DNA from: an uncultured Armatimonadota bacterium
GTDB taxonomy: Bacteria; Armatimonadota; Fimbriimonadia; Fimbriimonadales; Fimbriimonadaceae
Assembly: GCA_903899015.1 (NCBI GenBank)
Contig: CAIUHP010000084.1
Span: forward strand, 1 to 64,000
Reading direction: 5' to 3'
Length of the DNA: 64,000 bases
The notes below the pieces were generated by a model that worked only from the letters and a program-made list of their open reading frames with translations, was not told where the DNA came from and searched no databases. The position numbers and the translations under genes are program-made. Shown piece after piece: positions 2,468-22,437 of this stretch. Numbering within the stretch: position 1 is the stretch's first letter; every line of letters begins with the position of its first letter.

Positions 2468-2692
2468 TTACTTGATTCCGTTCTTGTCCTTAATGGATTT
2501 AATGAGAGCGTCTTTTGCGCTCTGAGGCATGGGTGAATTCTGCGCTCGCTCGATTTGCTGCTCGGGTGTTGCGTTCTTCACGTCGTTGACTGCCTTCTCT
2601 TCTGCCGCGGTGTGGGGTGGGGCCCCATGGTCATCCCCACACCCGGCTGTGAAAAGGCCGATACAGAGCAATAATATCGGCCAAACCTTCAT
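2468..2692 (-). CDS. Small lipoprotein (74 aa), translationally coupled to prepilin
   Basis: A 74-residue protein with a short hydrophobic signal and a lipobox LFTAGC, so Cys18 should be lipidated. The mature part (DDHGAPPHTAAEEK...IKDKNGIK) is hydrophilic and probably helical, with no known domain. I chose the ATG at 2692, which overlaps the TAA of the prepilin gene (TAATG) and gives a proper signal peptide; an upstream frame start inside the prepilin is less likely. A second 74-residue lipoprotein follows the other prepilin of this window (17798-18022). The pairing suggests a joint role at the cell surface or in pilus assembly. The function is unknown. Confidence 0.8.
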   Translation of the reverse strand: MKVWPILLLCIGLFTAGCGDDHGAPPHTAAEEKAVNDVKNATPEQQIERAQNSPMPQSAKDALIKSIKDKNGIK

Positions 2693-3570: not shown

Positions 3571-3605
3571 GTCAGAGAGAAACCTCCATTGGTTTTAACT
3601 GCGAA

Positions 3606-4715
3606 TCACGATTCAGATGTTTGAAAGGGCAGGCCGAGGCCTGCGTCGGCGACGAAAAAGTCAGTGGGCACACGGATGATTCGGGGAGCATCCGCGTTCC
3701 CATGGATTTGGTCAAGCAGCAAACCGGCTGCGACTTTGCCGATTTCATAGCTGCGCTGGACGATTCGATGCGCACACCAAGGAGTGCGCAGCATCATGGC
3801 CGGCCAATCGTTGAAAGTGACGAGTTCCAAGTCTCCGGGCACGGATAGTCCCATCTGGTCGCATGCTTGGAGCGCGGCGGAGGCGAATGAGTCCTGAACG
3901 CAGAAAAGCGCGGTGATCGGTTCTTGCTGCTTCAGAAGGGTAAAAAGCGAATCGTGAACTGCTTGAACGAATCCTTGCGGATTCGTGTCGAGTTCGAGAG
4001 GAAACCAGCGAGTGAGAGAAGATACGTCATTAACTCCCACCGATGCGAGCGCGCTTTGGTAGCCTCGATGGCGCTCGCTAACTGCGGAAACAAACGGTTT
4101 GTTGAATGAGAAAAAGCCAATCCGGCGGTGGCCCCGTTCTTCTAGGGTTTCAATGGCGCAAAGGGTAGCGCCCTGATTATCAGACATCACGGCATGGGTA
4201 TGGATCCCCTCTGGCAAGCGGTCGAGGATCACAAGCGGCGTTCCGTGATCGATGAATTTCTGAATGGCAGGCGATGCCTTCGCGTGGCTCGTGGGATACA
4301 TCAGCAAGCCGTCCGTTTCGACTTCAAACTTCTTGAGTAGTCGGATTTCTAACTCAGGGTCTCCCTTGCATTCCGCAATAACCAGGTTGCGATCCTCACC
4401 CAGTGCGTCTTGAATGCCGCGAACAAGCTCACTCGACGGAAAGTTGAGCTCTTGCGCGAATCGATCGACGAGTAATCCAACTCGACCGGTCTTTACCGCT
4501 GATCGGTCAGCCACAACCGTTCCCCATCGGCGCTGTCGTAAAACAACCCCTTGCCGTTGAAGCTCTTCCAATGCCCGGTGAGCAGTGTTCTTGCTAACGC
4601 CCCAGTGGGCAGCAATATCCTCTCCGCTGGGCACCTTCGCCCCGACTTTGATTTCGCCTCTGTCAATTCGTTGACCGAGGTCGGACGCTATCGTCTTCCA
4701 CGTGACATTTGCCAT
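3606..4715 (-). CDS. Hybrid transcriptional regulator: GntR-type HTH plus LacI-type sugar-binding domain (AraR-like)
   Basis: A 369-aa regulator. Residues 1-75 form a GntR winged helix (WKTIASDLGQRI, DIAAHWGVSKNTAHRALEEL, GVVLRQRRWGTVV). The rest is a periplasmic-binding-like effector domain of the LacI/GalR type (GRVGLLVDRFAQEL, ERGHRRIGFFSF, CVQDSFASAALQACDQMG, PGDLELVTFND). The same build is known from AraR, which answers to arabinose. The effector here is probably a sugar, but that is inferred. I start it at 4715 (MANVTWK) because the divergent paralogue at 5020 starts MANISWK. It is followed closely by the prepilin and lipoprotein genes and may be cotranscribed with them. Confidence 0.88.
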   Translation of the reverse strand: MANVTWKTIASDLGQRIDRGEIKVGAKVPSGEDIAAHWGVSKNTAHRALEELQRQGVVLRQRRWGTVVADRSAVKTGRVGLLVDRFAQELNFPSSELVRGIQDALGEDRNLVIAECKGDPELEIRLLKKFEVETDGLLMYPTSHAKASPAIQKFIDHGTPLVILDRLPEGIHTHAVMSDNQGATLCAIETLEERGHRRIGFFSFNKPFVSAVSERHRGYQSALASVGVNDVSSLTRWFPLELDTNPQGFVQAVHDSLFTLLKQQEPITALFCVQDSFASAALQACDQMGLSVPGDLELVTFNDWPAMMLRTPWCAHRIVQRSYEIGKVAAGLLLDQIHGNADAPRIIRVPTDFFVADAGLGLPFQTSES

Positions 4716-5019
4716 CGCATTTGCGCGCCAGTGCGCATTAATCCTAGGCAATATAACACAGTTCTATTCAAAAAGTATGTTTAATATTCACACATGTTAT
4801 CGAATCTAGTTGTTAGAAGCCTCAAAACGAGACGTACGCAGTGAAACTCTCTTTATTGACCAATCGTAAATCCGGGCAAGGTTAAGCGCTATTCCTTGTT
4901 TCTATGGTTTGGTATGCTTGCTGAGGTTTCCGTAACCAGACAATTGCCAATAATTAAGGGGGCGTTAACTCACTTGATGGTGTGCATGACTTGTTGAGGT
5001 CGGGGCCGCGCTTTGATTA
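4716..5019. other. Divergent intergenic region between two paralogous regulators
   Basis: This 304-base, AT-rich stretch must contain the promoters of both regulators. A loose inverted repeat, ATATAAC-ACA-GTTCTAT (about 4752-4768), lies upstream of the minus-strand gene. It could be an operator for autoregulation, but one arm differs at one base and I see no second copy. No Shine-Dalgarno sequence stands before either start. No gene is visible. Confidence 0.45.
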
Positions 5020-6105
5020 ATGGCCAACATTTCTTGGAAAACCATAGCCTCAGATCTGACGAACCGAATAGAGAACGGTGAGTTGCCCGAAATGACGCGC
5101 ATTCCTGCGAGCGTCGATATTGCGACTCAATGGGGCGTCAGCCGGCAAACCGCTGATCGAGCGGTTCACGAACTCCAGCGTCTCGGATTAGTCGTCCGCC
5201 AGCGTCGATGGGGAACCGTCGTTGCTCCCCGCGAAGCAGTCAAGAGAACGGGGCGGGTCGCGCTTCTTGTCGACCAATTCTCCCAAGAGCTTAACTTTCC
5301 TTCCGGAGATCTCATTCGCGGAATCCAAGACGTGCTAGGCGAAAACATCAACTTGCTTCTCACTGAAAGCAAAGGTGACCCGGATATGGAAGCTCGCCAG
5401 TTGCTACGGCTTCCGGGTGAGGTTGACGGTTTGATTGTTTATCCCACCAGTCGCCCTAAAAACACGCCGGTATTGAAACATCTCATCGAATCGGGAATGC
5501 CAGTGGTGGTGCTTGACCGCATACCAGTAGGAGTGGAAACGGATGCGGTTGTCAGCGATAACGAGGCCGCCACGTTACGCGCGATTCGAGCGCTGGAAGA
5601 ACGCGGGCACCGCCGAATTGGCTTCTTTTCGTTCCATAAACCTGAATTCTCCTCGGTGAAAGAGCGGCATGCGGCCTATCAACTTGCTCTCGCGGAAGTC
5701 GGAATCGAGGATGCCACCGAACTCACCCGGTGGTTTGCCAGAGAACTCGAATCTCAGCCTCAACCTTTCCTGCAGTCGATCCATGACGCGGTTTTCACGC
5801 TTTTGAATCAGCCTGACCCGATCACCGCACTTTTCTGTGTTCAAGATTCGATTGCGGTTGCAGTGCTTGAGGCATGCGATCGGATCGGTATCTCCGTTCC
5901 GGACGACCTTGAAATCGCACTGTTCAACGATTGGCCCCCCGTGATGCTTCGATCCCCTTGGAACCTCCACCGAATTGTTCCTCGTTCCTACCTCATCGGT
6001 CAAACTGCGGCTCGACTCCTGAAGGAGCGCATTGAGGGCGCTCCCCACCCGCTTCAAACGGTCAAAGTCGATGCCGATTTCTTTGTCGCGAATCTTGGTA
6101 AGTGA
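5020..6105 (+). CDS. Hybrid GntR/LacI-type transcriptional regulator, paralogue of the divergent gene
   Basis: A 361-aa protein with the same two-part build as its neighbour: GntR winged helix (DIATQWGVSRQTADRAVHELQ, LVVRQRRWGTVV) and a LacI-type effector domain (GRVALLVDQFSQEL, ERGHRRIGFFSFHKPEF, PDDLEIALFNDWPP). The two proteins align almost end to end, and most of the DNA-binding helix is shared, so they arose by duplication and may recognise related sites. They differ in the turn before the first helix (GELPEMTRIPAS against GEIKVGAKVPSG) and in the effector domain, which suggests different ligands. No structural gene follows directly on the plus strand; the downstream PAP2 gene is convergent. 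Confidence 0.88.
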   Translation: MANISWKTIASDLTNRIENGELPEMTRIPASVDIATQWGVSRQTADRAVHELQRLGLVVRQRRWGTVVAPREAVKRTGRVALLVDQFSQELNFPSGDLIRGIQDVLGENINLLLTESKGDPDMEARQLLRLPGEVDGLIVYPTSRPKNTPVLKHLIESGMPVVVLDRIPVGVETDAVVSDNEAATLRAIRALEERGHRRIGFFSFHKPEFSSVKERHAAYQLALAEVGIEDATELTRWFARELESQPQPFLQSIHDAVFTLLNQPDPITALFCVQDSIAVAVLEACDRIGISVPDDLEIALFNDWPPVMLRSPWNLHRIVPRSYLIGQTAARLLKERIEGAPHPLQTVKVDADFFVANLGK

Positions 6106-6698: not shown

Positions 6699-8828
6699 TT
6701 ACTTAGCGGCAGACGACTCCCACTTGAAGCACTCTCCACCTTTCCGAGCGGGCGAGGGACCGGGGGACGTGGCCGACAGGGGGGCGGTGGAAAATGGGGT
6801 GGCAAACAGATATCGGTGGGTGCGGATGGACATCAACATCGTGTCACCTCTCATCAGATTTACCCATTGAAAGGTCTCGGATTCGGTTGGTTTTGCCTTG
6901 CCTAAGTCAGTGAGGATTACTTTGTCACCCATGGCGGAAACGTAATGACCATTCAGGGTGCGGAGGGCGACTCTTCCCAATCCGAGATCGATGACTTTGA
7001 ATTGAGCGTGCTTGCTTTCAACCTGATCGAGAGGAACGCTCTTCAGGGTTTTTGCTACGGGGTCAGCTACTACCACCGAGGAATCAGCACTGCTGGTGAG
7101 GGTAATGACTTTACCGATCGGAATTTCGCGCTCGATGCCGCGTGCGCGTGGTTCGTTTGTAACGAAATCTTTGAAGTCGGCAAAGCCTCCCGCGACACCC
7201 GACTGATTGAAATTGAACAGCGCAGGACGCACACCTTGGAAGGTTTGCAGTTGGAATGTCATCGTAAACGGATCGCCAAGGTTTGTAAAAGCCTTGCCAT
7301 CTGAGCTCCAACTGAAGACCGCTTGATCGGTGTCGAAATTGCAGTGGACTCGAAGCCAAAGTTGGCTCGGGGGTTGAACCACCGATCCAGAGATGGTCGT
7401 TTTCCATTCTGCCTGAGTCTGCTTTCTGCCCGATCGCCCACCGCTCTTGCCTTGAACGACCTGAAGAGTCGTGCTCTCGGATGTTTTCACCACGCCAATC
7501 CAAGCATAGGGCGAACTGAGGAGTCCTAGTCCGGTAGTGTCGCCCGGAAGTAAGCCTGAGGTATCCAGTTTCACGCTCACCATGCATTCGGGACCGGGCG
7601 GGCGCTGACAAAGAGAATTCCTTGCGTGGTAAAAATCGCTCGCAGGCAAGGAGTGCAATCGCAATACACCCTTGTCCTTGATAAGCGACCATTTCGTGTC
7701 GTCAGGAACATGATTCCACTGCCAGAGCGGACTCAACGCGTCCTTGCTGAACCGGTCGTCATGATCGAAAGTGGGAGTGGGCTTCTGGACAAACCCTGTG
7801 TCAGGCTTGATCCATGTGTTGGGCGCACGGCGCAGGTTGCCTGGCAAACCGATGATAGGGAAGTCGTTGTCCCATGTGATAGGAACCAGGGATACCATCC
7901 GTCCCCCACTGCCATGATCGGACATGATGATGCTCCACCACTGACCGGAGGGAGTGCTGACAATGCCGCCCTGGTGAAGCCAAAGACCGCGATCGTCCGA
8001 CCTGGCTTTGGCGGGAGTCCCAGAAGGAACACCCATTGATTCGCCATCTACCATCTTGGTAACTTTCCAGGGCCCATCGATGGAATCGGCTTTGGCCACC
8101 ATTTGGTTGACGCTCCCGCCTGGAATCGCGGAGACATCGTAATACTTTCCAGCGATCTTGTATAAATGGTGCCCTTCACCCATTTGAGGCCCATCGAGTG
8201 GAACCGTCAGAAAACGGTGGGTGCCGGGGATAAACGACTTGAGATCTGGGGTCAGTTCCTCAATGGGATAAGGACTACTGCCGCCCGAGATCATAAAGAT
8301 TTTGCCGAGTTCATCGTCGAAAAGTACGGACTGATCGTGCCTTCCCGGCAATTGGTGACGCTTCCAGGGCCCCCTAATAGACGGTGAGCTGTAGACCAAC
8401 AACCCTGCTCGGTTGACATTACAAAAGACGTAAAACGTGCCCTTATGATAGCGAAGACAGGGAGCCCAAATTCCTTGACCGTAGATGTTTCCTCCCTCCA
8501 GTCGATACGCAGACCCAAGGTCTAATCGCGGGGAGCAGTAACCCGCCAAACTCCAGTTCACAAGGTCCTTGGAGTGCATCAGGATGACTGCAGGATTCAT
8601 GTGCATCGTGGTGCCGGCAAGGTAGTAATCGGTTCCGACTCGAATCACGTCGGGATCCTCAAATTCCTCGTAAAAGAGAGGATTGGAATAGGTTCCATTT
8701 CCGTTATCTGAGGTCCAATGTTTCTTCACGTTTTGGGATGAGACGTTCCGAGCATGAGAAATGGGTGGTGCCCCCAACAGAATGGAACTAACAAGCATCA
8801 TCGGTAGCAGCTGACTCCATGAGATCAT
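6699..8828 (-). CDS. Secreted glycoside hydrolase family 43 (beta-xylosidase/arabinofuranosidase-type)
   Basis: A 709-aa protein with a signal peptide (cleavage probably after SHA near residue 26). The five-bladed propeller of GH43 begins at YSNPLFYEEFEDPDVIRV, with the base Asp in DPDVIR; the family's acid Glu probably lies in GPQMGEGHHLYKI. Residues from about 350 to 545 resemble the beta-sandwich that many GH43 xylosidases carry at the C-terminus. The last 145 residues (ITLTSSADSS...FKWESS) look like a beta-trefoil/fascin-like module, perhaps for carbohydrate binding. It would cleave xylose or arabinose units from arabinoxylan fragments outside the cytoplasm. The start overlaps the GH51 stop by 4 bp (ATGA), so the two are translated from one message. 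Confidence 0.88.
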   Translation of the reverse strand: MISWSQLLPMMLVSSILLGAPPISHARNVSSQNVKKHWTSDNGNGTYSNPLFYEEFEDPDVIRVGTDYYLAGTTMHMNPAVILMHSKDLVNWSLAGYCSPRLDLGSAYRLEGGNIYGQGIWAPCLRYHKGTFYVFCNVNRAGLLVYSSPSIRGPWKRHQLPGRHDQSVLFDDELGKIFMISGGSSPYPIEELTPDLKSFIPGTHRFLTVPLDGPQMGEGHHLYKIAGKYYDVSAIPGGSVNQMVAKADSIDGPWKVTKMVDGESMGVPSGTPAKARSDDRGLWLHQGGIVSTPSGQWWSIIMSDHGSGGRMVSLVPITWDNDFPIIGLPGNLRRAPNTWIKPDTGFVQKPTPTFDHDDRFSKDALSPLWQWNHVPDDTKWSLIKDKGVLRLHSLPASDFYHARNSLCQRPPGPECMVSVKLDTSGLLPGDTTGLGLLSSPYAWIGVVKTSESTTLQVVQGKSGGRSGRKQTQAEWKTTISGSVVQPPSQLWLRVHCNFDTDQAVFSWSSDGKAFTNLGDPFTMTFQLQTFQGVRPALFNFNQSGVAGGFADFKDFVTNEPRARGIEREIPIGKVITLTSSADSSVVVADPVAKTLKSVPLDQVESKHAQFKVIDLGLGRVALRTLNGHYVSAMGDKVILTDLGKAKPTESETFQWVNLMRGDTMLMSIRTHRYLFATPFSTAPLSATSPGPSPARKGGECFKWESSAAK

Positions 8829-10930
8829 TTCACGGTCATGCGGTACAGGTTGATGCTGTATTTTGCAGGGGTCAATTTGGCGGGCAGAGACTCAAACTTT
8901 TCGGATTGAACCACTACTTCGGGTGCTTGCCCGACCGCCGTCACTGCATTCAGACTTGCAGGTGCCAGCCTCCAGACCATTCCGCTCCCCTTCAGATTTG
9001 CGTTGATAATATTTAAGTCGAGAACCTGCTCAGATTCGGTTGGGTTGATCACCGCGATCGTAAGGGCTTTGCGGTCCTCGCTCCAAGCGGAGGCTATGTC
9101 GAGCGGAAATGTGTCGCTTCCGGCATTGACGGCGGGTTGTTCGCCACCAGGAGGATCCGTTGGTTTTGGCTGGGGAGACCGTCCTCTTACTTCTACAGGC
9201 ACCGAACCAAATTGCTCGCGATAAAGCTTGAACATAAGGCCGGTAGGGTTCAAAACCGCTTCCGACCGATTGGCGCTGAACATGGCGGTGGCGAAAGTAA
9301 AACACGCCATGTTGTAGAGGTCCGAGTGTCGGAACATCTCGTGAAGCGCCCAAGCATACGCGGGAACGACCCGATAGGAATTAGGGGGCCCGCCTGCGTA
9401 AGCCCATTCGTCCAGAGCAATCGGGACCGGCTTTGATACGAGCGCGGGAATAAGCTTTTCGTAGGCCCGGTACTCCTCCACCTTTAGGCGAATGTGATTT
9501 GCTGGGCGGCGCATCCACGTAACAAGGGGTTCGTCAGCATCATTTGGCACTTGCTGGGCTTTCTTCAGATCGTAGTGAGTTCCGCCGTAGTTGTAGAAGT
9601 GCTCGCTAATGAGGTCCATGTTGTCCAGACAATGGGCGAACAGTCCGCCGGTCCAATCAGCGGGTCCTAAGGGTTCGGGGATCAACGAATTGCCAAGTGA
9701 GAGTGACTCTTTGGAGCCCGTCATGGTGTCGGCCATGGCCCCGCTGCCGATCAACGTAATCGTAGGGTCCACGCTTCGCATTGCCTCGGCGAACGAATTG
9801 TGTTTGAACTCAAATTGGCTGAGCTTCATCGCTCCAAATTGGTAACTTGTGCCCCAAGCTTCGTTTCCGATGCCCCAGTATTTGACATGGTAAGGCTCAC
9901 GATGCCCATTCTGAGCTCGTAACCTTCCCATAGCGGTTTTTGTGGAGCCATTGCAGTACTCGACGTATTCTTTGGCGGACCACGCATCTCCGGTACCTGC
10001 GTTTACCGAAATATACGGCTGCACGTCGACGAGCTTGCAGAACTTCATGAACTCGTCGGTGCCTACGTCATTGGGTTGAACAGCATTCCACACCGGATCG
10101 AACTTTGGTGACCTTCGATCAGGATCGCCGATGGCATCTCGCCACTCGTGAGCTGAAACAAAATTTCCTCCCGGGAATCGGTAAACGCCAGAATGAAGTT
10201 GTTTGAGGACGCCAATGACTTCAGAACGAAATCCATCGAGGTTGTCGGCCGGCATCAATGAGGCGGCACCGACTTCAAAGGAGCCGTTGCCGATTCCAAC
10301 GATCTGAAATTTCGCGTTTTCGGTCGAGACCGGCGACTTGAAGTGAAAAGTGACTTTATGAAAAGACACTTGCACATGATCGAGGGGAATGGATTGACAA
10401 TCCGACGGTTTGGAGCCCCAAAGGATCACGACGTTAAATCTGGCTAGCGGCGATCCCGAGAGAACCACTCGGCCCGAGTACGTTTTCCCCGCAACCAAGC
10501 CGATTCCCGCCTGCTCGATGCCACGCTGTTCAGCCGGTGAAAGCGTTATTTGAGGAGAATGCTTGCCAACATAAGTGTGTGAAGAATCCATCGCGAGTGC
10601 GGACCCTGGACCAACGGGAGTCCACGTTCGCAGCCTCGTTCGTGCCGCCCTCGGACCACCGGAATCGCGCGAAGTTTTAGCTGGAATCGGGTTATAGAAC
10701 TTGCGATCATCAAGCATTTCGGACCACAAACCGTTGTTAACGATGTTCCCGATACGCTCCACGAATTGCCCATAAAGATTCTTGGAAATGGGAGCGGAAG
10801 TCTTACTCGCGTCGATGGTGGCTTCCACGGATTGCGCGCATGCCGCTGTTAACTGAATTGCAATCGCGCTTGCAATACATGCCGTTCGTCCTAATCGGCT
10901 TGAAGTTCGCTGAATTTGTTTTTTATCCAT
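8825..10930 (-). CDS. Secreted alpha-L-arabinofuranosidase, glycoside hydrolase family 51
   Basis: A 701-aa enzyme with a signal peptide (TACIASAIAIQLTAACAQS). N-terminal motifs ISKNLYGQFVERIGNIVNNGLW and RFPGGNFVSAHEWRDAIGD are typical of GH51. The acid/base Glu is in YWGIGNEAWG (about residue 357) and the nucleophile in IALDEWAYAGG (about 508). A jelly-roll C-terminal domain follows. It removes arabinose side groups from arabinoxylan or arabinan. I chose the ATG at 10930 (MDKKQIQR), which puts a basic N-region in front of the signal helix; a start at 10969 is possible. It lies upstream of and overlaps the GH43 gene, and downstream of the CE1 esterase. Confidence 0.92.
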   Translation of the reverse strand: MDKKQIQRTSSRLGRTACIASAIAIQLTAACAQSVEATIDASKTSAPISKNLYGQFVERIGNIVNNGLWSEMLDDRKFYNPIPAKTSRDSGGPRAARTRLRTWTPVGPGSALAMDSSHTYVGKHSPQITLSPAEQRGIEQAGIGLVAGKTYSGRVVLSGSPLARFNVVILWGSKPSDCQSIPLDHVQVSFHKVTFHFKSPVSTENAKFQIVGIGNGSFEVGAASLMPADNLDGFRSEVIGVLKQLHSGVYRFPGGNFVSAHEWRDAIGDPDRRSPKFDPVWNAVQPNDVGTDEFMKFCKLVDVQPYISVNAGTGDAWSAKEYVEYCNGSTKTAMGRLRAQNGHREPYHVKYWGIGNEAWGTSYQFGAMKLSQFEFKHNSFAEAMRSVDPTITLIGSGAMADTMTGSKESLSLGNSLIPEPLGPADWTGGLFAHCLDNMDLISEHFYNYGGTHYDLKKAQQVPNDADEPLVTWMRRPANHIRLKVEEYRAYEKLIPALVSKPVPIALDEWAYAGGPPNSYRVVPAYAWALHEMFRHSDLYNMACFTFATAMFSANRSEAVLNPTGLMFKLYREQFGSVPVEVRGRSPQPKPTDPPGGEQPAVNAGSDTFPLDIASAWSEDRKALTIAVINPTESEQVLDLNIINANLKGSGMVWRLAPASLNAVTAVGQAPEVVVQSEKFESLPAKLTPAKYSINLYRMTVK

Positions 10931-11019
10931 GGGTTCAGATGTTCTTGGTGAGCGAGTTGGGCGCTCCATTCACGAAGCCTGCATCACAATGAGTTCGATT
11001 CTTATCTCGCTCGAAAGCG

Positions 11020-12138
<1,119 letters not shown>

Positions 12139-12178
12139 TCAAGGTCCGAAGTTGACGATAACGCTCGATATCAAGCAA

Positions 12179-12194
12179 TATATCACGTTATATA
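12179..12194. promoter_or_regulatory. Operator-like palindrome, site A (CE1/GH10 divergent region)
   Basis: TATATCACGTTATATA is a near-perfect inverted repeat with a central CG, the hallmark of many LacI-family operators; extended by one base on each side it is 18 bp with only one mismatched pair. It lies between the divergent CE1 esterase (start 12090) and GH10 xylanase (start 12313), so it could control both. Two related sites occur at 16485 and 16645. Binding by the LacI-type protein encoded at 13703 is an inference. Confidence 0.6.
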
Positions 12195-12312
12195 TGTAAA
12201 TGGGTCCCACTGGATTCGTTGGATCTTGAGTCTTGAGCGAAAGTCGTTTGTGGCTTGACAGGCACATTTACAAAGGCGGATAACCGTTTCGCGCGATCGA
12301 AGGAGATTGAAC

Positions 12313-13461
12313 ATGTTCAATGAATTGACGATGTTAGGGAAAGTGACGCTGAGCTTGGGACTCATCGGCACGTGTCTATGCGCGTTGGGGCAGCCTGCCC
12401 CGAGGTTGCGGGATTTGGCCAAGGCGCGCAGATTCAATATCGGGTCAGCGATGCCCGTCAGCAACCTTCGACAAAACATTGACGACGGAAAATACGCCGC
12501 TCTTGCGTCTTCGGAATTCAACCTTCTGGAGCTGGAAAATGACCTCAAGCCACCCGCGATTTGGGTTGGGCCCCACGAATATCACTTCACCGATGTGGAT
12601 TTCATCGTGGGAGGACCCGGTCAACGAGGTTGGGCTCAAGAACACGGTATGAAACTGCGAGGGCACGTTCTGGTGTATGCCCGAGACGAGGGCTACACGC
12701 TGCCCCAATGGCTGAAAAGCTCCGGGGCGAGCATGTCGAAAGACGAAGCCAGCGAGTTATTACACGACTACATTCACGCGTTAGTCGGTCGATACCGAGG
12801 AAAGGTTGCGATGTGGGATGTTGCCAATGAAGCGATCGATGATCGGCCCAACCAGAATCCGTTCAATCTGCGTAACAGCTTTTGGTTCCGAAAACTCGGT
12901 CCTGAATTCTTGGTGATGGCTTTCAAGTGGGCTCACGAGGCTGATCCAAAGGCCGAACTATATTACAACGAGTATGGGGTTGAAGGGGGTGGCCCGAAGG
13001 CTCAACACATGCTTGAACTTGCGAAGTGGCTGAAGCAACAAGGAGCCCCGATTACCGGTCTGGGCCTTCAGTATCACATTGACTGGAAGACTTCCATCGC
13101 GCCAGGAGATGGGCATTACCAACTGATTGACGAGATTCATAAGCTCCGCCTGGCCTATATGATCACCGAATTGGATGTTGCTGTTCCGGTTCAAAAACTA
13201 CCGGCCGGAGATCCAAATCGTGGGCTTATCCCTGCCGATCCGGAAGATCTTAATTTGCAAGCCAAAACATACGCAGCTGTCTTCCAAATGGCGCTTACAT
13301 CGAGAAACTGTCACGGCATTAATATTTGGGGACTCACCGATCGACACTCGTGGATTCCTGGTTTTAGCCAAGGGCGTAACGGCTTGGCAACGCTCTTTGA
13401 TAAATCCTACCTACCCAAACCGGCACTCCAAGCGGTGGAGGATGTGCTAAAGCGGAAGTAA
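12313..13461 (+). CDS. Secreted endo-1,4-beta-xylanase, glycoside hydrolase family 10
   Basis: A 382-aa enzyme with a signal peptide (MLGKVTLSLGLIGTCLCALGQ). The GH10 barrel is complete: RGHVLVYARDEG, acid/base Glu in MWDVANEAIDD (about residue 173), YYNEYG, and nucleophile Glu in MITELDVAVP (about 286); WGLTDRHSW is close to the C-terminus. It cuts the xylan backbone inside the chain. The start at ATG 12313 is set by a good ribosome site AGGAGA six bases upstream; a TTG at 12307 lies directly against that site and is less likely. It is the only gene here with so clear a Shine-Dalgarno sequence. It is transcribed away from the CE1-GH51-GH43 group and precedes the LacI regulator. Confidence 0.95.
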   Translation: MFNELTMLGKVTLSLGLIGTCLCALGQPAPRLRDLAKARRFNIGSAMPVSNLRQNIDDGKYAALASSEFNLLELENDLKPPAIWVGPHEYHFTDVDFIVGGPGQRGWAQEHGMKLRGHVLVYARDEGYTLPQWLKSSGASMSKDEASELLHDYIHALVGRYRGKVAMWDVANEAIDDRPNQNPFNLRNSFWFRKLGPEFLVMAFKWAHEADPKAELYYNEYGVEGGGPKAQHMLELAKWLKQQGAPITGLGLQYHIDWKTSIAPGDGHYQLIDEIHKLRLAYMITELDVAVPVQKLPAGDPNRGLIPADPEDLNLQAKTYAAVFQMALTSRNCHGINIWGLTDRHSWIPGFSQGRNGLATLFDKSYLPKPALQAVEDVLKRK

Positions 13462-13702
13462 CTCTTGACGAGCTTCCTTTAGGTAGACGCTAAGGATCTG
13501 GGAGCGATCTTCTCGAAGAACTTGTTGAAGATGCGGCGACTATCTAAGTAGCACTGTGTCTTATATTCAGATGGGGAAAGGCAATGAGTTCACGTCCAGA
13601 AACCGAAGCTTGAATTCGGTCCGATTTCGCGTAAGGTAGCCTGAATTTATTAATGTTTCGGAATGAGAAACCAGTGCCAATGACGCTATTGCATAAAATC
13701 AA

Positions 13703-14746
13703 ATGAGAGCAACCTTGAAAGATGTGGCCGAAGCCGCCGGCGTATCGCCGATGGCGGTCAGCGTGGTTCTCAATGGAACCGGCGGTCAAAAGGTCACGGT
13801 GAGCCCTGACAAGGCGAAGCTCATTCGACAAGCGGCGCTCGAACTTCGCTATCGACCAAACCATTTGGCTCAGTCTCTGCGGAGTCAACGTACAAACCAA
13901 GTCGCAGTCGTCTTTCAGCACTTCTCAGATATTGGCCCGCAAAATCCTTATCACATTCAGTTGTTGGGGGGCGTCACTTCCGCGCTGTTTAAGCGGGGAT
14001 ACGCGATGACCTTGTGTCCGAAGATGATCGTCGACGGCGACTATGCGTCCTTCTCGGACGGCCGTTTTGATGGGATCCTGTGGTGCCGTCCTGACTTTAA
14101 TGATGTCTCACTAGAAGCGATTCGACAGTCGCACATTCCCATCGTGATGATGCACGTGCCGCCTGGCACCGTACCGGGAGTCCCAACGTTTTGCGCGGAT
14201 AACGAGGGCGCGATGCGGCGAGTCGTTGAATATTTAAAATCACTCGGCCACGAGAAAATTGCGTTCGTGATCGATCCGGTGAGTATTCGATCCGTGGAAG
14301 GACAAGCGAGATCTCAAGCCTTCATCTCGTCAATGGCACGGGCGGAGCTTCCGACGCCAGACATTGTGGTCTTCGAACAGGACCATTCGGTGTTGCTCCG
14401 ATATGCGGAACCGAATGCGCCCCATACCGCACTCGTCTGTTTTTCTGACGAACTTGCCGGGTTCGTTCTTAAATCGTGCAAAGCCTACGGAGTGGAAGTT
14501 CCGAAGCATGTTTCGGTAGTTGGATTCGATTCCTCTCCTTTCTGTGATAACACGCAGCCTCCTTTAACCTCCGTTAACCAACCAGTTCGCCAAATCGCCG
14601 AGGCTGCCACGAATCATTTGCTATCCCTCGTTGAACAAACGGATTCAGCCGCTAATCCTTTGCCGCTGATTTCCCTCTATGACTGCTCGCTGGACGTTCG
14701 CGAATCAACTGGCCCCCCTCCCGGATCACAAGATTCCGACGCCTAA
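13703..14746 (+). CDS. LacI-family transcriptional regulator
   Basis: A 347-aa protein. The N-terminal 60 residues are a LacI-type helix-turn-helix and hinge (ATLKDVAEAAGVSPMAVSVVLNG, RPNHLAQSLRSQRT). The rest is the sugar-binding periplasmic-like domain (QVAVVFQHFSD, FDGILWCRPDF, LGHEKIAFVIDPVSI, VSVVGFDSSPFCDNTQPPLTSVNQP). It most likely represses the surrounding xylan genes and is released by a xylan-derived sugar. Three palindromes with a central CG or CA in the intergenic regions of this locus are the natural candidates for its operators. It sits between GH10 and the convergent halogenase-like gene. Confidence 0.92.
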   Translation: MRATLKDVAEAAGVSPMAVSVVLNGTGGQKVTVSPDKAKLIRQAALELRYRPNHLAQSLRSQRTNQVAVVFQHFSDIGPQNPYHIQLLGGVTSALFKRGYAMTLCPKMIVDGDYASFSDGRFDGILWCRPDFNDVSLEAIRQSHIPIVMMHVPPGTVPGVPTFCADNEGAMRRVVEYLKSLGHEKIAFVIDPVSIRSVEGQARSQAFISSMARAELPTPDIVVFEQDHSVLLRYAEPNAPHTALVCFSDELAGFVLKSCKAYGVEVPKHVSVVGFDSSPFCDNTQPPLTSVNQPVRQIAEAATNHLLSLVEQTDSAANPLPLISLYDCSLDVRESTGPPPGSQDSDA

Positions 14747-14767
14747 CTCTCTCGAGAATCGATGGAG

Positions 14768-16459
14768 CTAGGCCTGCTTGGCAAATGTTGTCGCACGCGG
14801 CATGGATGGGTTGTACGAAGGTGTCAGCCAACCCTCCCTCACCAGCGCCTCTGCGGCTTGGGTGTAGTTTGCAAAGTTGCCCATTTCGCTTCCGATGTGC
14901 TTGCCAAAGTGGTAGCAAGCCGCCAGCCATTGATCTACATGAACGGGCTTAACGGCTGCACTCAGTAGCAATTCAAACAGGGCGATCCGCGGCAAGGTCA
15001 CATCGCCTCGAACGTAGCTGGCCGCTTGAATGATCCTACCGTTTTCGTAAATCGCATAAGGAGCTTGGGTCGCGCCTGCGAGATTCGCGGTGACGCAGTT
15101 ACAGCCTTCAAGGGCGGAAAGGACCTCACCGCCCGTGAGATGCTCTGCGACCAACTGAAGTCCAGAAAGAGGAAAACCCACCGCTCCCGCGAACCCTGGC
15201 CGATCGAGGGCAAAGCCTCCTGTGCTGAGCCAAGCAAACGCGTCGTCTGCCTTCAGGTTGAGGCCGACATCGGCGGCAAGAGTGGTGCAGAACTCTTTCA
15301 GGTCCGAAAAGCAGCCATTTCCTGCGTACCAAAAATCCGCAAATCGCATGTGGTGAAGAATTTGGATACGATGCCCCTCGTTGTATTCCTTTTTGATCCA
15401 GTCAGGTGGCAGTTGACCCCGGAAGAGCTCGAGGATCGAATAGGCCACCTTTCGGGCCGAAGTTTGAGCAAGCGTAAGCCCGGCGGAGAGGATCGGGTCG
15501 GCGAACCCACAACTGTCGCCAACGAGGAACCAGTTTTCTCCGCATAGTTGGCGAGAGAGGAAGTTCCAGTCCTTTGTAGTGCTGAAATTCTCCTCGCGGG
15601 TTGCTGATTGGAGTAGGGATGAGATGTGTGGCTCGGACTGAATCGCCTCTAAGTAAAGTTCAAGCGGTCGTTGGCCGGTCTTCTTGTAATATTGGGCGGG
15701 CAGAACCAGGCCAACCGATGTCCGGGTATCGGTAATCGGAATGAACCAAAGCCAACCCCAACCTAGGCTCATGATCTGGATGCGCGTGGCTACTCCGCTG
15801 AACCGTTCGGGCCATTCCGCATGTTGCCAGTAATCCCAAAACGCGATGTTCCTTAACGCAGTCGGTGATTCGATGGGGATTTGTAACGCTCGTCTCAACA
15901 CACCCGCTTCCCCCGATGCGTCGACGGTGTATTTTGCTTTCAATTCAAACTCGTTGCCGCCTTTTTCACGTACAACGAGGTGGTTGATCAAGCCATTCGC
16001 CCCCTTGACATCTCGAACTTCGGATTCCATGCAGACCAAGCATCCTGCCTCACGAGCATGTTCGAGCAGAATCTCGTCGTACTGGCTCCGATCGACTTGG
16101 AAAGCGGTTTTTGTGCGCTGGGACTCAAACTTTCCCGGCCTCTCGGTCTCGGTGAAGTCCGATTCGCCGATGAAGCTTAAGTTCCAATGGTCGTCAGTTG
16201 AGCCCCATCGGTAAGTTGCTCCGAGCTTAATCGGGAAATTGGCCGCCTCTACCTTGTCCCAAACTCCCATTTCCGCAAGGATCGTGGTGACGGCAGGAAG
16301 CAAGCTTTCACCAACGTGGTCTCGAGGGAATTTCTCCTTCTCGATAATCGCAACCTGCAAGTTCGGATCGTATTTCTTGAGAAGGGTTCCGAGAGTGGAT
16401 CCCGATGGACCTCCGCCAACAATGGCCACGTCGACTTGCAAACTTTTCGTCATCTTCAC
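14768..16459 (-). CDS. Flavin-dependent halogenase-like oxidoreductase
   Basis: A 563-aa flavoprotein. It has the FAD-binding motif VDVAIVGGGPSGST, the segment FPRDHVGESLLP typical of the halogenase branch, GWGWLWFIP which fits the W-x-W-x-I-P motif of FADH2-dependent halogenases, and VGDSCGFADPILSAGL, the second FAD motif. Such enzymes use a separate flavin reductase and chlorinate or brominate aromatic rings, but many relatives have no known substrate and some may be plain monooxygenases. The catalytic Lys could not be placed with certainty. The gene is inside a xylan locus with an operator-like palindrome 26 bp upstream of its ATG. Halogenase-like genes are also known from TonB-linked sugar loci of Proteobacteria. 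No flavin reductase is nearby. Confidence 0.78.
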   Translation of the reverse strand: MKMTKSLQVDVAIVGGGPSGSTLGTLLKKYDPNLQVAIIEKEKFPRDHVGESLLPAVTTILAEMGVWDKVEAANFPIKLGATYRWGSTDDHWNLSFIGESDFTETERPGKFESQRTKTAFQVDRSQYDEILLEHAREAGCLVCMESEVRDVKGANGLINHLVVREKGGNEFELKAKYTVDASGEAGVLRRALQIPIESPTALRNIAFWDYWQHAEWPERFSGVATRIQIMSLGWGWLWFIPITDTRTSVGLVLPAQYYKKTGQRPLELYLEAIQSEPHISSLLQSATREENFSTTKDWNFLSRQLCGENWFLVGDSCGFADPILSAGLTLAQTSARKVAYSILELFRGQLPPDWIKKEYNEGHRIQILHHMRFADFWYAGNGCFSDLKEFCTTLAADVGLNLKADDAFAWLSTGGFALDRPGFAGAVGFPLSGLQLVAEHLTGGEVLSALEGCNCVTANLAGATQAPYAIYENGRIIQAASYVRGDVTLPRIALFELLLSAAVKPVHVDQWLAACYHFGKHIGSEMGNFANYTQAAEALVREGWLTPSYNPSMPRATTFAKQA

Positions 16460-16484
16460 TCAACCTCCCGATCCTGATTCAGAC

Positions 16485-16500
16485 TATATAACAATATATG
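16485..16500. promoter_or_regulatory. Operator-like palindrome, site B (halogenase-like gene)
   Basis: TATATAACAATATATG fits the pattern TATAT-NN-CR-NN-ATAT seen at 12179 and 16645. It has CA rather than CG in the centre, so it is the weakest of the three. It lies 26 bp upstream of the halogenase-like start on the minus strand, where a bound repressor would block transcription. Confidence 0.5.
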
Positions 16501-16644
16501 AAATTCCTCGTTCTATACACGTGAGATGCCAGCAGGTTGCTTCTAAAGGGTGCCATTTTCTGAAAATCATCGCTTACAAATCGAAAATTTTGAAAATTTG
16601 AACCTCATTTTTGCAGAAATCGCCTTATAATCGATTCTGGCGCT

Positions 16645-16660
16645 TATATAGCGTTATATC
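16645..16660. promoter_or_regulatory. Operator-like palindrome, site C (second prepilin)
   Basis: TATATAGCGTTATATC is an inverted repeat with a central CG and matches site A at most positions. It lies 183 bp upstream of the prepilin start at 16843 and 186 bp upstream of the halogenase-like start on the other side. With site B it could form a pair 160 bp apart that allows looping. Confidence 0.55.
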
Positions 16661-16842: not shown

Positions 16843-17724
16843 ATGCAACGCAAAGCATTTACACTTATTGAACTACTTGTAGTTATCGCCATCATTGCGA
16901 TCTTGGCTGCGATTCTTTTCCCAGTCTTTGCTCAGGCAAAGGAAGCTGCTAAGAAAACATCGTGTTTATCGAATGAAAAACAGCTCGCCCTTGGAATCGT
17001 GATGTACACGAACGACTCGGACGACACCTATCCTCAGGGAACTGCCGCTTGGAACTTCTTCAGCGGAGTTTCTTCTGGCGACTTCTGGGGCAATTACAAC
17101 TGGGGAGTTGTCACCTTGCCGTATATCAAGAGCGTCGGCATTTTTGATTGTCCCGACGATACGAAGGGTGGCAAAGTGGACCCCAATACTGCTTGGGCAG
17201 GCATCATGATGTCCTACTCAGCCAACGGACTCATCGTGCCTTGGCAGCCATCGCCGAGTGACCAATACTGCAAAGGATTGATGTGCGAAGATGGCGCGGG
17301 TCCGGGAGGATCGGTGGTGAGTGGTAGCACGGTCAATAGCCCCGCTGCGGTTATTTCGTTTACCGAGTCTCATTCCGATCAGCTGGCTGCCGCCGGTGCG
17401 CAGATCAACTACACAGCTGGTTTCGGCGGAATCATGACTGGCTACATGTACTACGAGAACACGCAACTTCCGAACCAATGTGGAACCGCTAACGGCACCA
17501 CGACGTGTGGCAAGTTCCCATTCGGAATCAACGGCGCGGTATCTGTTCACGGTGGCGGCCAAGCAAATTTCGCCTTTGCGGACGGGCATACCAAGTCGAT
17601 GGTTCCGGCGAGAACTGTGCCGAATAACGCTGGTCCGGCAACCGGAGCGCCTTGGTGGCTATGGGGGCAATTTGACACCGGTGCAACCGGCACACCGAGC
17701 ATGTGGGAAGCCGACCACGTCTGA
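16843..17724 (+). CDS. Prepilin-like protein with N-terminal methylation motif (DUF1559-like), xylan-locus copy
   Basis: A 293-aa protein built like the one at 2692: leader [17 protein letters not shown], helix ending in [20 protein letters not shown], and near the C-terminus [19 protein letters not shown], the H-X9-DG-like end of DUF1559 pilins. It would be cleaved by prepilin peptidase and anchored in the inner membrane or built into a fibre. I chose the ATG at 16843, where the short basic leader begins and AGAGAGG precedes at a fitting distance. It is followed 73 bp later by a 74-aa lipoprotein and then by GH52, so a fibre or adhesin linked to xylan use is a fair inference. Confidence 0.87.
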
Positions 17725-18022: not shown

Positions 18023-18074
18023 AGCGGGTGCGAGATAGCCTGATTTCACATGGCTTAAGCCCACAATAGTGTCC

Positions 18075-20207
18075 ATGACTTCCCCTTTCTTCAATGCTCA
18101 CCACTCTCCCGTCGGAGCATTTGCCACTTTCACTTTTGGAATGAAAGGGGGGCGTGGGGGGCTCGGCCTGGAGCTTGCGGGACCCGCAAATGAAGACCTG
18201 TACGTTGGTGTCGAAGACATCGAGAGTCCCGGTTCTTTTCGAGCCTTGCCGTTTTTTGAAGACCTGCGCACAAAGTCGGAAGATTTCGATGTCGAGCACC
18301 TGTCCGATTTCACCGCGGTATCACGCATCACTCCTTTTTCCGATGAGGAAATTGAGCGATCCATGGGGCCATCGGTTGATGAGTGGCGAGCCCGTGACCT
18401 AACTTTTCGCGTGATCTCCCCGGTGAGATCGATCCCCGAACCAGGTGTTGCCACTCCGAATGAACTTAGAGACGCAATCGCACCCGTCATCTTGGCTGAA
18501 CTAACGATTGATAATCGGTCCGGAAAATCGCCACGGCGGGCATTCTTCGGCTATCGCGGATCGGATCGTTCGGCCGGGATGCGTGTTCTTAAAGGAGCGC
18601 AATTTGTGGGAATTGGGCAGCACACGATGACCGCGATTGCGACCGACGATCCCGACGTCTATGCAGGCATCTCGTTTCAACCCGAGAAAGTTCTTGAACC
18701 TGAATCATCGGAGAACCTCAACTTCCTTGTGGGAGACCTTGGACTCCTTGTAGGTTGGGTGAAGCCGGGAGAAGTTCGAACCTTTCGGTTTGCTCTTGCA
18801 TTCTTTCGGGAAGGTACGGCTACCACGGGCATCTCGACCCGCTACCTCTATCGCCGATTTTTCGACGATATCGAGTCGGTTTTACAGCATGGCCTCGCTC
18901 AATTCGATGCGTCAGTGCAAGAAGCTCATGCGTTTGATCTGAGGCTTACCGAGCAATTGTCCCCTGAACGAAGATGGATGGCATCTCACGCGATTCGGTC
19001 TTACTTGGGCTCCACTCAACTTTTAGAACGCCAAGACGGATCGCCGCTTTGGGTGGTCAACGAAGGTGAGTATCGGATGATGAACACCTTTGATCTCACT
19101 GTGGACCAAGCATTCTTTGAGTTATCGCAGAATCCTTGGACCCTGCGGAACCAACTCGATCTTTACGTGGAAAGGTACTCCTATAACGATCGGGTTCGAC
19201 TACCGGGCTCGATGGACACCTATCCGGGCGGCATCGCATTCACCCATGACATGGGGGTTGCAAATGCTTTCTCTCGTCCCGAATTCTCGGGGTACGAGCA
19301 GTCAGGGCTTCGAGGCTGTTTCTCCTACATGAGCGCCGAGGAGCTATTGAACTGGGTGCTAAGTGCGTGCCTTTACCATTCCATCACCCGTGACTTAGCC
19401 TGGGTTGTTTCTCATCGAGAAACCTTTCTTAACTGTCTGGGTAGCATGGTGAATCGTGACCATCCGGAGCCCTCTTTACGCAACGGAATCATCGGCGCAG
19501 ATGCGGCTAGGTGCAATGGCGGGTCTGAGATCACAACCTACGACAGTCTCGATGTCTCGCTTGGACAAGCTCGAAACAACTTGTACCTTGCGGTGAAAGG
19601 GTGGGCAACTTACGCGTTGCTTCAAAATCTGTTCACTGTCCTTGGCGAGCCTGCAGCCGCCACCGAAGCAGCCGATCAGGCGGCTAAAGCTGTAACATCG
19701 ATTGTGAACGCGGCCGGAGAAGACGGTTTGCTCCCGGCCGTGATTGGGGAAGGGGTCCAATCGCGAATTATTCCCGCCATCGAAGGACTTGTTTACGCTC
19801 ATATCACCAGCGTTCCGATCGATGGGAAACTCTTGAACGTCCTTTCCAATCATCTTCAATCCGTACTTCGTCCGGGAATCTGTAAGTTCGAGGATGGAGG
19901 TTGGAAGCTGTCTTCAACGAGTAGAAATTCTTGGCTCAGCAAGATCTACCTCTGCCAATTCGTTGCTGAAAACGTGTTGGGTTATGCCCAAGACATTGAA
20001 GCTGATCGAGCCCACGTCGGATGGCTGCTTGATTTGGACAACGCCTATTACGCGTGGAGCGACCAGATGCTGGCTGGAAAAGCCGTGGGCTCTCGCTACT
20101 ATCCGCGAGGGGTGACGTGCATCCTTTGGACGGTTCCAAAGTCCAGCAAAAACCCTTTGAGCGATCTTGCCAACCTGCGATCGAAGCAGCGGGTCAAGAC
20201 TGGATAG
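18075..20207 (+). CDS. Beta-xylosidase, glycoside hydrolase family 52 (cytoplasmic)
   Basis: A 710-aa protein that matches the GH52 beta-xylosidases known from Geobacillus over its whole length (those have about 705 aa). Shared stretches include FFNAHHSPVGAFA at the N-terminus, WVVNEGEYRMMNTFDLTVD in the middle (region of the nucleophile Glu), EITTYDSLDVSLGQARNN (region of the acid Asp), and GSRYYPRGVT near the end. It splits xylo-oligosaccharides to xylose. There is no signal peptide, so it acts in the cytoplasm and needs a xylo-oligosaccharide importer, which is not in the window. The ATG at 18075 gives the family's N-terminus; a GTG at 18069 would add two residues. It follows the prepilin-lipoprotein pair by about 50 bp. 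Confidence 0.95.
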   Translation: MTSPFFNAHHSPVGAFATFTFGMKGGRGGLGLELAGPANEDLYVGVEDIESPGSFRALPFFEDLRTKSEDFDVEHLSDFTAVSRITPFSDEEIERSMGPSVDEWRARDLTFRVISPVRSIPEPGVATPNELRDAIAPVILAELTIDNRSGKSPRRAFFGYRGSDRSAGMRVLKGAQFVGIGQHTMTAIATDDPDVYAGISFQPEKVLEPESSENLNFLVGDLGLLVGWVKPGEVRTFRFALAFFREGTATTGISTRYLYRRFFDDIESVLQHGLAQFDASVQEAHAFDLRLTEQLSPERRWMASHAIRSYLGSTQLLERQDGSPLWVVNEGEYRMMNTFDLTVDQAFFELSQNPWTLRNQLDLYVERYSYNDRVRLPGSMDTYPGGIAFTHDMGVANAFSRPEFSGYEQSGLRGCFSYMSAEELLNWVLSACLYHSITRDLAWVVSHRETFLNCLGSMVNRDHPEPSLRNGIIGADAARCNGGSEITTYDSLDVSLGQARNNLYLAVKGWATYALLQNLFTVLGEPAAATEAADQAAKAVTSIVNAAGEDGLLPAVIGEGVQSRIIPAIEGLVYAHITSVPIDGKLLNVLSNHLQSVLRPGICKFEDGGWKLSSTSRNSWLSKIYLCQFVAENVLGYAQDIEADRAHVGWLLDLDNAYYAWSDQMLAGKAVGSRYYPRGVTCILWTVPKSSKNPLSDLANLRSKQRVKTG

Positions 20208-20248: not shown

Positions 20249-21157
20249 ATGCAACCCATAACTATCTGTATCTGCCGTCAAGTCATTTGCCTATCGATCT
20301 TATTCGGGATGGGCTCAAGTGCGTCGGCCAAGCAAGATACTCCCGATCCTAAGTTTCAGATTTATCTCTGTTTCGGGCAGTCTAACATGGAAGCGGGTGC
20401 TCGTCCAGAATCGCAAGATTTGGCCCCGGTCGACCCGCGGTTTCAGATGCTTGCCGCGGTCGATAATCCTAAGCTGGAACGCAAAAAGGGGAATTGGTAC
20501 GTCGCCACTCCTCCCATCAACCGGCCCGAGAACAACATGGGCCCCGTCGATTTCTTTGGTCGCACGATGGTTGCCAACTTGCCAAAGGACTATAGGGTCG
20601 GCGTGATCAATGTCTCAGTAGCGGGCGCGAAGATCGAACTCTGGCAAAAGAACACCTATGCCACGTACCTCGCCACTGCACCCGATTGGATGAAAGGCAT
20701 GTGCAAACAATATGACGATAACCCGTACAAGCGGCTTGTCGAGATGGCCAAAATTGCTCAAGAGAAGGGCGTGATCAAGGGGATTCTGCTTCACCAAGGC
20801 GAATCTAATTCAACCGACAAAGATTGGCCGAGCAAGGTGAAAGGAATCTATAACGACCTGATCAAGGATTTGGATCTTGATCCTCAAAATGTACCCTTGC
20901 TCGCAGGCGAACTCAAGACCGCCGAAGAGCACGGAGTCTGCGCCGCGTTCAACGTCAATATCCTTCCGCATCTCATAGAAGTCGTACCCAATTCGTACAT
21001 CATCTCCTCCGCCGGATGCAAAGGAACTCCCGATCCCTTCCACTTCAACACCGAAGGCATGCGAGAACTCGGCCACCGCTATGCCCTCCAAATGCTCAAG
21101 ATCTTGGGTCTTGAAAAGTCCGGCACGGGCAAGCGCACCAGCGTCAGTCGAGATTAA
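20249..21157 (+). CDS. Secreted carbohydrate esterase, SASA/CE6 type (acetyl xylan esterase-like)
   Basis: A 302-aa protein with a signal peptide (ICRQVICLSILFGMGSSASA). The SGNH-like esterase motifs are CFGQSNMEAG (nucleophile Ser near 45), LLHQGESN and DPFHFN with the catalytic His. Such enzymes of the sialate-O-acetylesterase/CE6 family remove acetyl groups from xylan and so open the chain to xylanases. It is the last gene of the xylan group, 41 bp after GH52. The next frame, only 8 bp downstream, belongs to an unrelated RHS remnant, so the right border of the locus lies here. Confidence 0.87.
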   Translation: MQPITICICRQVICLSILFGMGSSASAKQDTPDPKFQIYLCFGQSNMEAGARPESQDLAPVDPRFQMLAAVDNPKLERKKGNWYVATPPINRPENNMGPVDFFGRTMVANLPKDYRVGVINVSVAGAKIELWQKNTYATYLATAPDWMKGMCKQYDDNPYKRLVEMAKIAQEKGVIKGILLHQGESNSTDKDWPSKVKGIYNDLIKDLDLDPQNVPLLAGELKTAEEHGVCAAFNVNILPHLIEVVPNSYIISSAGCKGTPDPFHFNTEGMRELGHRYALQMLKILGLEKSGTGKRTSVSRD

Positions 21158-21165
21158 GAGATGCC

Positions 21166-22437
21166 TTGGTGCTCTCTCGAAGTGCTACCTTTATCCATCT
21201 GATTTACACAGACGATCCGGATGGCAATGTCAACTTCGTAAGTCGAACTGCCGGAAGTCCGACTCCATTGGTTGTGTCTTACACCTATGGGTCTAGCGGA
21301 ATAAAAAATGGTGTCCCTACTCAGGTTGTGGATGGTCTAACCAACGTGACGCAAAACATAGACTATCAGACGAATCCGGCGTTGCCTGGCTATGGTCAGG
21401 TTGCAAGCGTGAATCAATTTGGTGGGCTAAGCCCGAGTTACAACGTCTACTACGGATACACGGCATCTGGAGACCGGTCGACAGCTAATTACGTAACTGC
21501 AAACGGCTCGATCACTTGGAAGTATTCCGATTACGCACCCGTTGGCTCGTTCGAGCAAAACAAGCGAGCGTTCCAAACATTGAATAAGCTCGATTCAAGC
21601 GGGAATTCAACTGCTGAGGAGATGCATTATCAATTCGACACTGCGGGAAGGTTGCGTGAGTCTGCTTTTGCTCAGTCTCCTCAAACGGGTTCGGGAGCTC
21701 CAAGTGCTGCTCCTTACTACACCGCGAGTTACCCTGCTGCCAGTCGTGTGATTAGCTTCAACGACTTCGATGGTGGGGGAAGGCAAGTGGATCTTCAGAA
21801 CGGCTATCAGGTCTGGGGTGGCAGTAGCTACAACGCGACTCAGTGCCTCGTGAGGAATTCGTGTGCTTACGATCTGACGAAGAACCTGAAGACATCTTCG
21901 AGCTTCTACGGTCCTGCATCTGGAGCGCCAACAACTTGGACCACCTCCCCGAGAGTGGAAACCTATGGCTACGATTCAGCGCTCGACTTCTTGACGTCGG
22001 CAAACTATAACGACGGCCTAGCGAATGCGAGTCCAACTTGGAGCTACGACGCCGCCGCGAACCGTACGGACTCGGTTTGTGACAACTTGAACCGAACAAC
22101 GTCTATCGGCGGAGTAACAACGATGACCGATACTCTAGGCAATCGTCTCACTCTCGGTTCTTCGACTAGCTACAGTTGGGACGCCCTCAACCGAATGACA
22201 AGCCTTACGAAGTCAGGAACGACTACAAACTACGAGTACCGAGCAGACGGAATGAGGACTCACAAGCTTGTCGGCTCAGTGGCAACTGAGTATGTCCACG
22301 ACGGCCAGATGCCGGTGGAAGACTCAGTTATCAACGGCTCGACACTTACTGTAACTCGCTACGGCCTTCTTCGTGCTGTGGTGTTGAACTTGCGACCGTC
22401 TGGGCGATTGAGGGGGGGGCCGTCGCAGCCATGTTAG
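21166..22437 (+). pseudogene. RHS/YD-repeat protein remnant, both ends lost
   Basis: The frame (423 codons) has many YD-type repeats (VYYGYTASGDRS, WSYDAAANRTDS, YSWDALNRMTSLTKSGTTTNYEYRADGMR, VATEYVHDG), the pattern of RHS shell proteins. It lacks a signal peptide and the N-terminal part. The family core normally continues after TRYGL with GARG; here it breaks off at about 22367 into an unrelated tail (LRAVVLNLRPSG). The start at 21166 has no ribosome site and sits 8 bp after the CE6 stop. I read it as a fragment left by recombination. A run of eight G (22412-22419) lies near its end. One more G would join it to a hydrophobic frame that ends at 22547. Confidence 0.65.

Follow-up and report, generated by a model that had tools for sequence, protein, structure and literature searches.

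Candidate LacI operators in a xylan locus of an uncultured Armatimonadota bacterium and their links to prepilin and halogenase-like genes

Local sugar regulons of LacI-family regulators have been surveyed across seven phyla, among which Armatimonadota is not named in the parts of the survey drawn on here (Ravcheev et al., 2014; PMC4052901). According to these parts, 1173 of 1303 LacI regulators recognize an even palindrome with central CG, and 72% of the studied regulators are autoregulated. In the available part of a second account, the LacI-family regulator XynR of Anaerocellum bescii has validated sites before xylanase, esterase and beta-xylosidase genes (PMC12285236). The locus described here resembles the surveyed regulons, as far as they are presented in the parts used, in that a lacI gene lies beside its presumed targets, the candidate sites are short intergenic palindromes and the genes serve sugar degradation (PMC4052901).

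The locus lies in a stretch of 64,000 nucleotides (the window) from an uncultured Armatimonadota bacterium. With a probability of roughly 0.86, judged from sequence comparison, three palindromes in this locus act as operators for a LacI-family protein, the product of the gene at 13703 (LacI 13703), which would block four transcription units until a xylan-derived sugar releases the repressor.

Three palindromes and the genes that they face

Pfam searches reveal the gene order GH43, arabinofuranosidase domain, CE1-type esterase, GH10, LacI, halogenase, DUF1559/N_methyl prepilin, GH52 and SASA esterase (Table 1). A first-pass annotation had proposed a xylan regulon, which is borne out by the GH43, arabinofuranosidase, esterase, GH10, GH52 and SASA esterase domains; the GH52 and SASA esterase genes behind the prepilin, which it had not mentioned, make the xylan reading stronger. 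The sites face CE1-GH51-GH43, GH10, the halogenase-like gene and prepilin-GH52-SASA esterase. Separately, a perfect palindrome, ATTGAACATGTTCAAT (12306-12321; 14 bp at 12307), spans the GH10 start codon and may be due to chance, as an estimated 1.5 or so perfect 14-bp palindromes are expected in 25 kb. A 423-aa open reading frame behind the xylan operon (21166-22437, plus strand) has no Pfam match and by eye resembles an RHS/YD-repeat fragment.

Table 1. Features of the xylan locus and its surroundings (window positions).
Feature	Position	Strand	Remarks
AraR-like hybrid regulators	3606-4751, 5020-6105		divergent; 6 kb from the sites, at the edge of the xylan locus
GH43 with GH43_C2	6699-8828	-	Pfam
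Arabinofuranosidase-like (GH51 type)	8825-10969	-	profile search
CE1-type esterase	11020-12132	-	PF00756; likely start ATG 12090
Weak auxiliary site	12168-12181		ATATCAAGCAATAT; 12 bp from site 1, overlapping; 5.8 bits
Site 1	12179-12193		TATATCACGTTATAT; palindrome register 12180-12193, ATATCACGTTATAT; between divergent CE1 and GH10
GH10 xylanase	12307-13461	+	PF00331; likely start ATG 12313
Degenerate self-site	13686-13699		CTATTGCATAAAAT; -17 of the window lacI; -2.2 bits
LacI-family regulator	13703-14746	+	PF00356, 43.7 bits (cut-off 27); PF13377, 91 bits
CmlS/PltA-like flavin halogenase-like protein	14768-16459	-	PF04820, 119.5 bits
Site 2	16485-16499		TATATAACAATATAT; palindrome register 16486-16499, ATATAACAATATAT; before halogenase-like gene; centre CA
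TATAAT, -10-like	16626-16631	+	14 bp before site 3
Site 3	16645-16659		TATATAGCGTTATAT; palindrome register 16646-16659, ATATAGCGTTATAT; upstream of prepilin
Prepilin-type protein with DUF1559 domain	16843-17724	+	Pfam
GH52 (beta-xylosidase family)	18069-20207	+	PF03512, 554 bits
SASA-family carbohydrate esterase	20249-21157	+	PF03629

In palindrome register, the three sites are imperfect copies of ATATAACGTTATAT. Their positions and intergenic location agree with the first-pass annotation, whereas its description of them as palindromes needs qualification: read as 7+7 palindromes, sites 1, 2 and 3 match in 6/7, 5/7 and 6/7 positions of their arms upon inspection of the sequence, and a palindrome search found no perfect 7+7 palindrome at any of them. 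The central CG that it had also described is present in sites 1 and 3, replaced by CA in site 2 and often lacking from the mixed sites of relatives, and is true of only part of the sites of this LacI subfamily. LacI operators are usually intergenic and mostly located 30-140 bp before a start codon. Site 1 lies 89 bp from the CE1 start (ATG 12090) and 119 bp from that of GH10, site 2 lies 26-32 bp from the start of the halogenase-like gene, whose start codon is GTG, and site 3 lies 183 bp from the prepilin start, beyond the usual range.

The sites are rare in the genome, of which 4,944,471 bases in 119 contigs (4.94 Mb) were scanned. With up to two mismatches, ATATAACGTTATAT occurs genome-wide only at the three window sites, all inside 4.5 kb, while three mismatches yield 38 places as opposed to 34 for a reversed-pattern control, which amounts to background. 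The pattern TATATNNCRNNATAT has four strand-wise matches at three places in the window, where 0.01 are expected from 100 dinucleotide shuffles, and a single place in the rest of the genome (C45:115378); both counts are circular, since the pattern was chosen after the sites had been seen. Less circular is the count for ATAT-N6-ATAT: of its 33 places genome-wide, four fall within these 4.5 kb, where the remaining 29 would predict about 0.026; the fourth local place is the weak auxiliary site. The looser form ATWT-N6-AWAT is near chance in the window (six matches, 3.4 expected), so that the signal rests on the strict form. Such palindromes are thus not spread through intergenic DNA, and the earlier reading survives the genome scan.

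Link to one LacI subfamily and a proposed switch

LacI 13703 combines the recognition helix VSPMAVSV with a periplasmic-binding-protein-like sensor domain (PF13377; PDB matches to PurR, CcpA and LacI). Homologues at E 1e-30 are found in 64 of 113 genomes of the order, own genome counted, and the own genome holds 11 LacI genes. From at least about 150 matches, 40 loci were taken, six of which hold own-genome paralogues; 47 LacI genes including that of the window were examined, and one partial gene (L096, 7114-7569) was dropped as its N-terminus is missing. Among genes with a methionine-type helix (VSxMAVS; Met-helix genes), 25 of 37 carry ATWT-N6-AWAT no more than 60 bp from the start and the remaining 12 do not show it in this range, whereas paralogues with other recognition helices show it in 0 of 10; close-kin loci among those counted (L078/L079, L103/L107 and L086/L087/L090) mean that the counts are not independent. 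The background is 68 matches in 735,860 bp or about 0.006 per 65 bp, an overestimate since the sites themselves are counted in. Other paralogues have palindromes that differ from it (GCTCAAACGTTTGAGC, CTGAATACGTATTCAG, ACTGAACCGTTTCAGT), as expected if every LacI has its own operator. The assignment of the sites to LacI 13703 in the first-pass annotation is supported by this contrast.

The same assignment gains from a matrix built outside the window, from 26 sites at the starts of homologous lacI genes, one from an own-genome paralogue (C66, L097) and 25 from other genomes. As these were gathered with the loose ATWT-N6-AWAT pattern, which was fixed after inspection of relatives, the test is independent of the window sites and dependent on that pattern. 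The matrix recovers exactly the three sites, which rank first to third in the window (site 3, 19.1 bits; site 2, 16.2 bits; site 1, 15.9 bits) ahead of a next-best position at 8.7 bits, and none of 614,608 background positions from 60 other loci reaches 15.9 bits. The earlier remark that no further site of this form was noticed in the window is correct for TATATNNCRNNATAT, which occurs there at three places only, but overlooked the weaker overlapping site at 12168-12181. The score of the latter is equalled or exceeded at 59 of the 614,608 background positions, and its AAGCAATATATCAC is kept exactly in locus L080 in an alignment of the GH10-CE1 gap.

In the tree, LacI 13703 groups with the proteins of L075 and L076 (three-row clade, 100/97) inside a seven-gene clade (100/100). 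These nearest orthologues (67 and 65% identity, respectively) have the CG-centred sites ATATATCGCTAAAT and ATATATCGATAAAT, and within the seven-gene clade L075-L079 carry a site 12-21 bp before lacI. No site was found just before lacI in the upstream region of L080; its divergent GH10-CE1 gap, flanked by genes whose products are 81% (GH10) and 83% (CE1) identical, holds ATATACGGATATAT. A site also lies before CE1 in L075, and in L088 and L091 one is located just upstream of GH10. Footprinting at GH10 is limited by the rarity of its relatives, which occur in 2 of 61 genomes, own included, at E 1e-60.

Autoregulation of the window lacI via a full site was considered and rejected, as only the degenerate CTATTGCATAAAAT was found. 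It sits where the orthologue in L075 has a full site and is one mismatch off the loose pattern, as 2.8% of shuffles are, and by its sequence it is probably not functional and a relic at most. The missing autoregulatory site counts against the operator reading, although autoregulation is usual rather than obligatory.

Another LacI paralogue could control the sites as well, in a shared regulon. The paralogue at C66:38483, which is 46% identical to LacI 13703 and has the similar helix VSAMAVSK, carries ATATACGGATATAT at -38 of its own gene; however, this site is not CG-centred, unlike those of the nearest orthologues of LacI 13703, and the three window sites cluster around gene 13703, which leaves joint control unlikely, if still worth some weight. 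It is quite improbable that the sites belong to the two AraR-like hybrids, which join a GntR helix-turn-helix to a LacI-type sensor. Both carry sugar-sensor domains, and AraR of Bacillus binds an AT-rich palindrome with central CG; but the divergent promoter region of the hybrids (4752-5019) contains neither ATWT-N6-AWAT nor a 7+7 palindrome, and an AraR-like gene is mostly absent from palindrome-bearing LacI loci (weak match in 2 of 40). The hybrids were therefore rejected as owners and are possibly arabinose sensors for the arabinofuranosidase genes. That AT-rich promoter DNA is palindromic here by mere chance, as the AT-richness of intergenic DNA and the near-chance count of the loose pattern might suggest, is very unlikely to the point of being negligible, given the genome-wide concentration of the strict forms in the xylan locus, the exact recovery of the three sites by an outside matrix and the contrast between helix types at lacI starts.

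Control by LacI 13703 is also consistent with the promoter layout. The 14-bp spacing between TATAAT and site 3 is that of the lacI-prepilin promoter of L076, a locus in which the prepilin gene follows lacI immediately. Up to 24 bp upstream of 14 of 25 lacI-start sites there is a TATAAT-like box (at least 5/6), as opposed to 9.6% of shuffles, and across L075-L092 such a box precedes the site in 12 of 13 cases. Most simply read, this layout places a repressor at the start site. The same check found no recognizable -10 box at sites 1 and 2, and a promoter scan of the three intergenic regions found no full sigma-70 consensus promoter.

We infer binding by LacI 13703, repression rather than activation, the effector and the operon extents as follows. 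When xylan-derived sugar is absent, a LacI 13703 dimer would occupy the three operators and block transcription of four units, two of them running leftward (CE1-GH51-GH43 and the halogenase-like gene) and two rightward (GH10, perhaps followed by lacI, and prepilin-GH52-SASA esterase). At the prepilin promoter, where operator 3 would lie about at the transcription start, RNA polymerase would be blocked by the repressor. A product of xylan breakdown would then release LacI 13703 from its operators.

Prepilin and halogenase-like genes beside LacI regulators

Prepilin genes frequently follow LacI genes in these bacteria. For 18 of 37 Met-helix genes and 5 of 8 other-helix genes (two of the ten were left out for too little downstream DNA), a prepilin starts between -60 and +250 bp from the LacI stop, and several prepilin genes overlap the preceding LacI gene by 4 bases. 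In the own genome, which holds 80 N_methyl genes, a prepilin lies directly behind 7 of 11 LacI genes as opposed to about 1% by chance. For comparison of numbers, 79 pseudopilin genes are given for Fimbriimonas ginsengisoli in the part of its report used here (PMC4072686). In a phylum-wide sample of 30 loci, eight of which were excluded because they could not be framed, a prepilin motif lies within 400 bp in 6 of 22 readable LacI loci. One LacI gene from another family of the phylum (L295; helix VSRMTVSA) is preceded by ATTTACCGATAAAT and followed, 82 bp on, by a prepilin motif, and both the operator type and the link to prepilins may extend across the phylum. In the window, the first prepilin (2692-4751 region, minus strand) lies directly behind a GntR/LacI-hybrid (AraR-like) regulator, and regulator-prepilin pairing may extend beyond LacI proteins.

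Flavin-dependent halogenases are marked by a WxWxIP motif and a catalytic lysine. The protein encoded at 14768-16459 has the profile and motifs of this family, and its activity is predicted: its best PDB sequence match is PltA (5dbj, E 9.8e-55), with WLWFIP opposite WVWQIP and the lysine of FPIKLGA opposite FPKKFGA in the alignment. It is not a CmlS equivalog, as it scores 176.5 bits against the CmlS model (cut-off 900). Halogenase-like copies number 11 in the own genome (G000) and up to 18 (G026). Among 75 such genes, including that of the window (60 regions for 110 matches, neighbours partly merged), 39 lie no farther than 1.5 kb from a prepilin, 24 of which are also within 3 kb of a LacI gene, and an arrangement of LacI, prepilin and halogenase in this order on one strand is seen repeatedly. 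In L246-L255, halogenase-like genes form tandem and divergent pairs.

The inclusion of prepilin and halogenase in the regulon, as proposed in the first-pass annotation, fits this recurrent cassette and the LacI-prepilin pairs of the own genome. In the window, the prepilin lies apart from lacI yet has the top-scoring candidate operator, and the halogenase-like gene has one of its own; the arrangement resembles a sensor-prepilin-halogenase cassette that has been rearranged, its members carrying separate candidate operators. An operator before halogenase-like genes as a general rule was rejected, since outside the window the palindrome rarely lies just upstream of the 75 genes (L099 has one 115 bp upstream); in most genomes they are probably under other regulators. 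It might be proposed, tentatively and with the odds somewhat against it, that each glycan-sensing LacI in these bacteria has its own prepilin, and often its own halogenase-like enzyme, made only with that glycan as a substrate-specific, pilus-like surface part that aids grip or secretion; the xylan locus would then be a broken-up cassette whose pieces each kept or gained the operator of the sensor.

Comparison with known systems

A search of the open-licence literature found no paper on a LacI-prepilin link in these bacteria. For a LacI subfamily from a phylum that the consulted parts of the regulon survey do not name (PMC4052901), the analysis provides a concrete candidate operator and regulon. 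Furthermore, it connects the prepilins of these bacteria, which are abundant and unexplained, with specific sugar sensors, which makes their role testable, as one glycan should induce each, and it gives a family of halogenase-like enzymes a sugar context.

Compared with the regulons in the portions of the survey used, the xylan locus differs in its half-site ATWTA, in a central CG that is often off-centre or missing, and in its prepilin and halogenase-like targets, while the 12-bp distance of the overlapping tandem sites is close to the peak of 13 bp reported there (PMC4052901). XynR is likewise a LacI-family protein with xylan-enzyme targets, but operators such as aatcgaaatcgcttacaatt differ from ATATAACGTTATAT, those of LacI 13703 are predicted, and the targets described in the available part of the XynR account include no prepilin or halogenase (PMC12285236). 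In contrast to the halogenases PltA and CmlS, the window protein is encoded in a carbohydrate locus and belongs to a family with many paralogues per genome.
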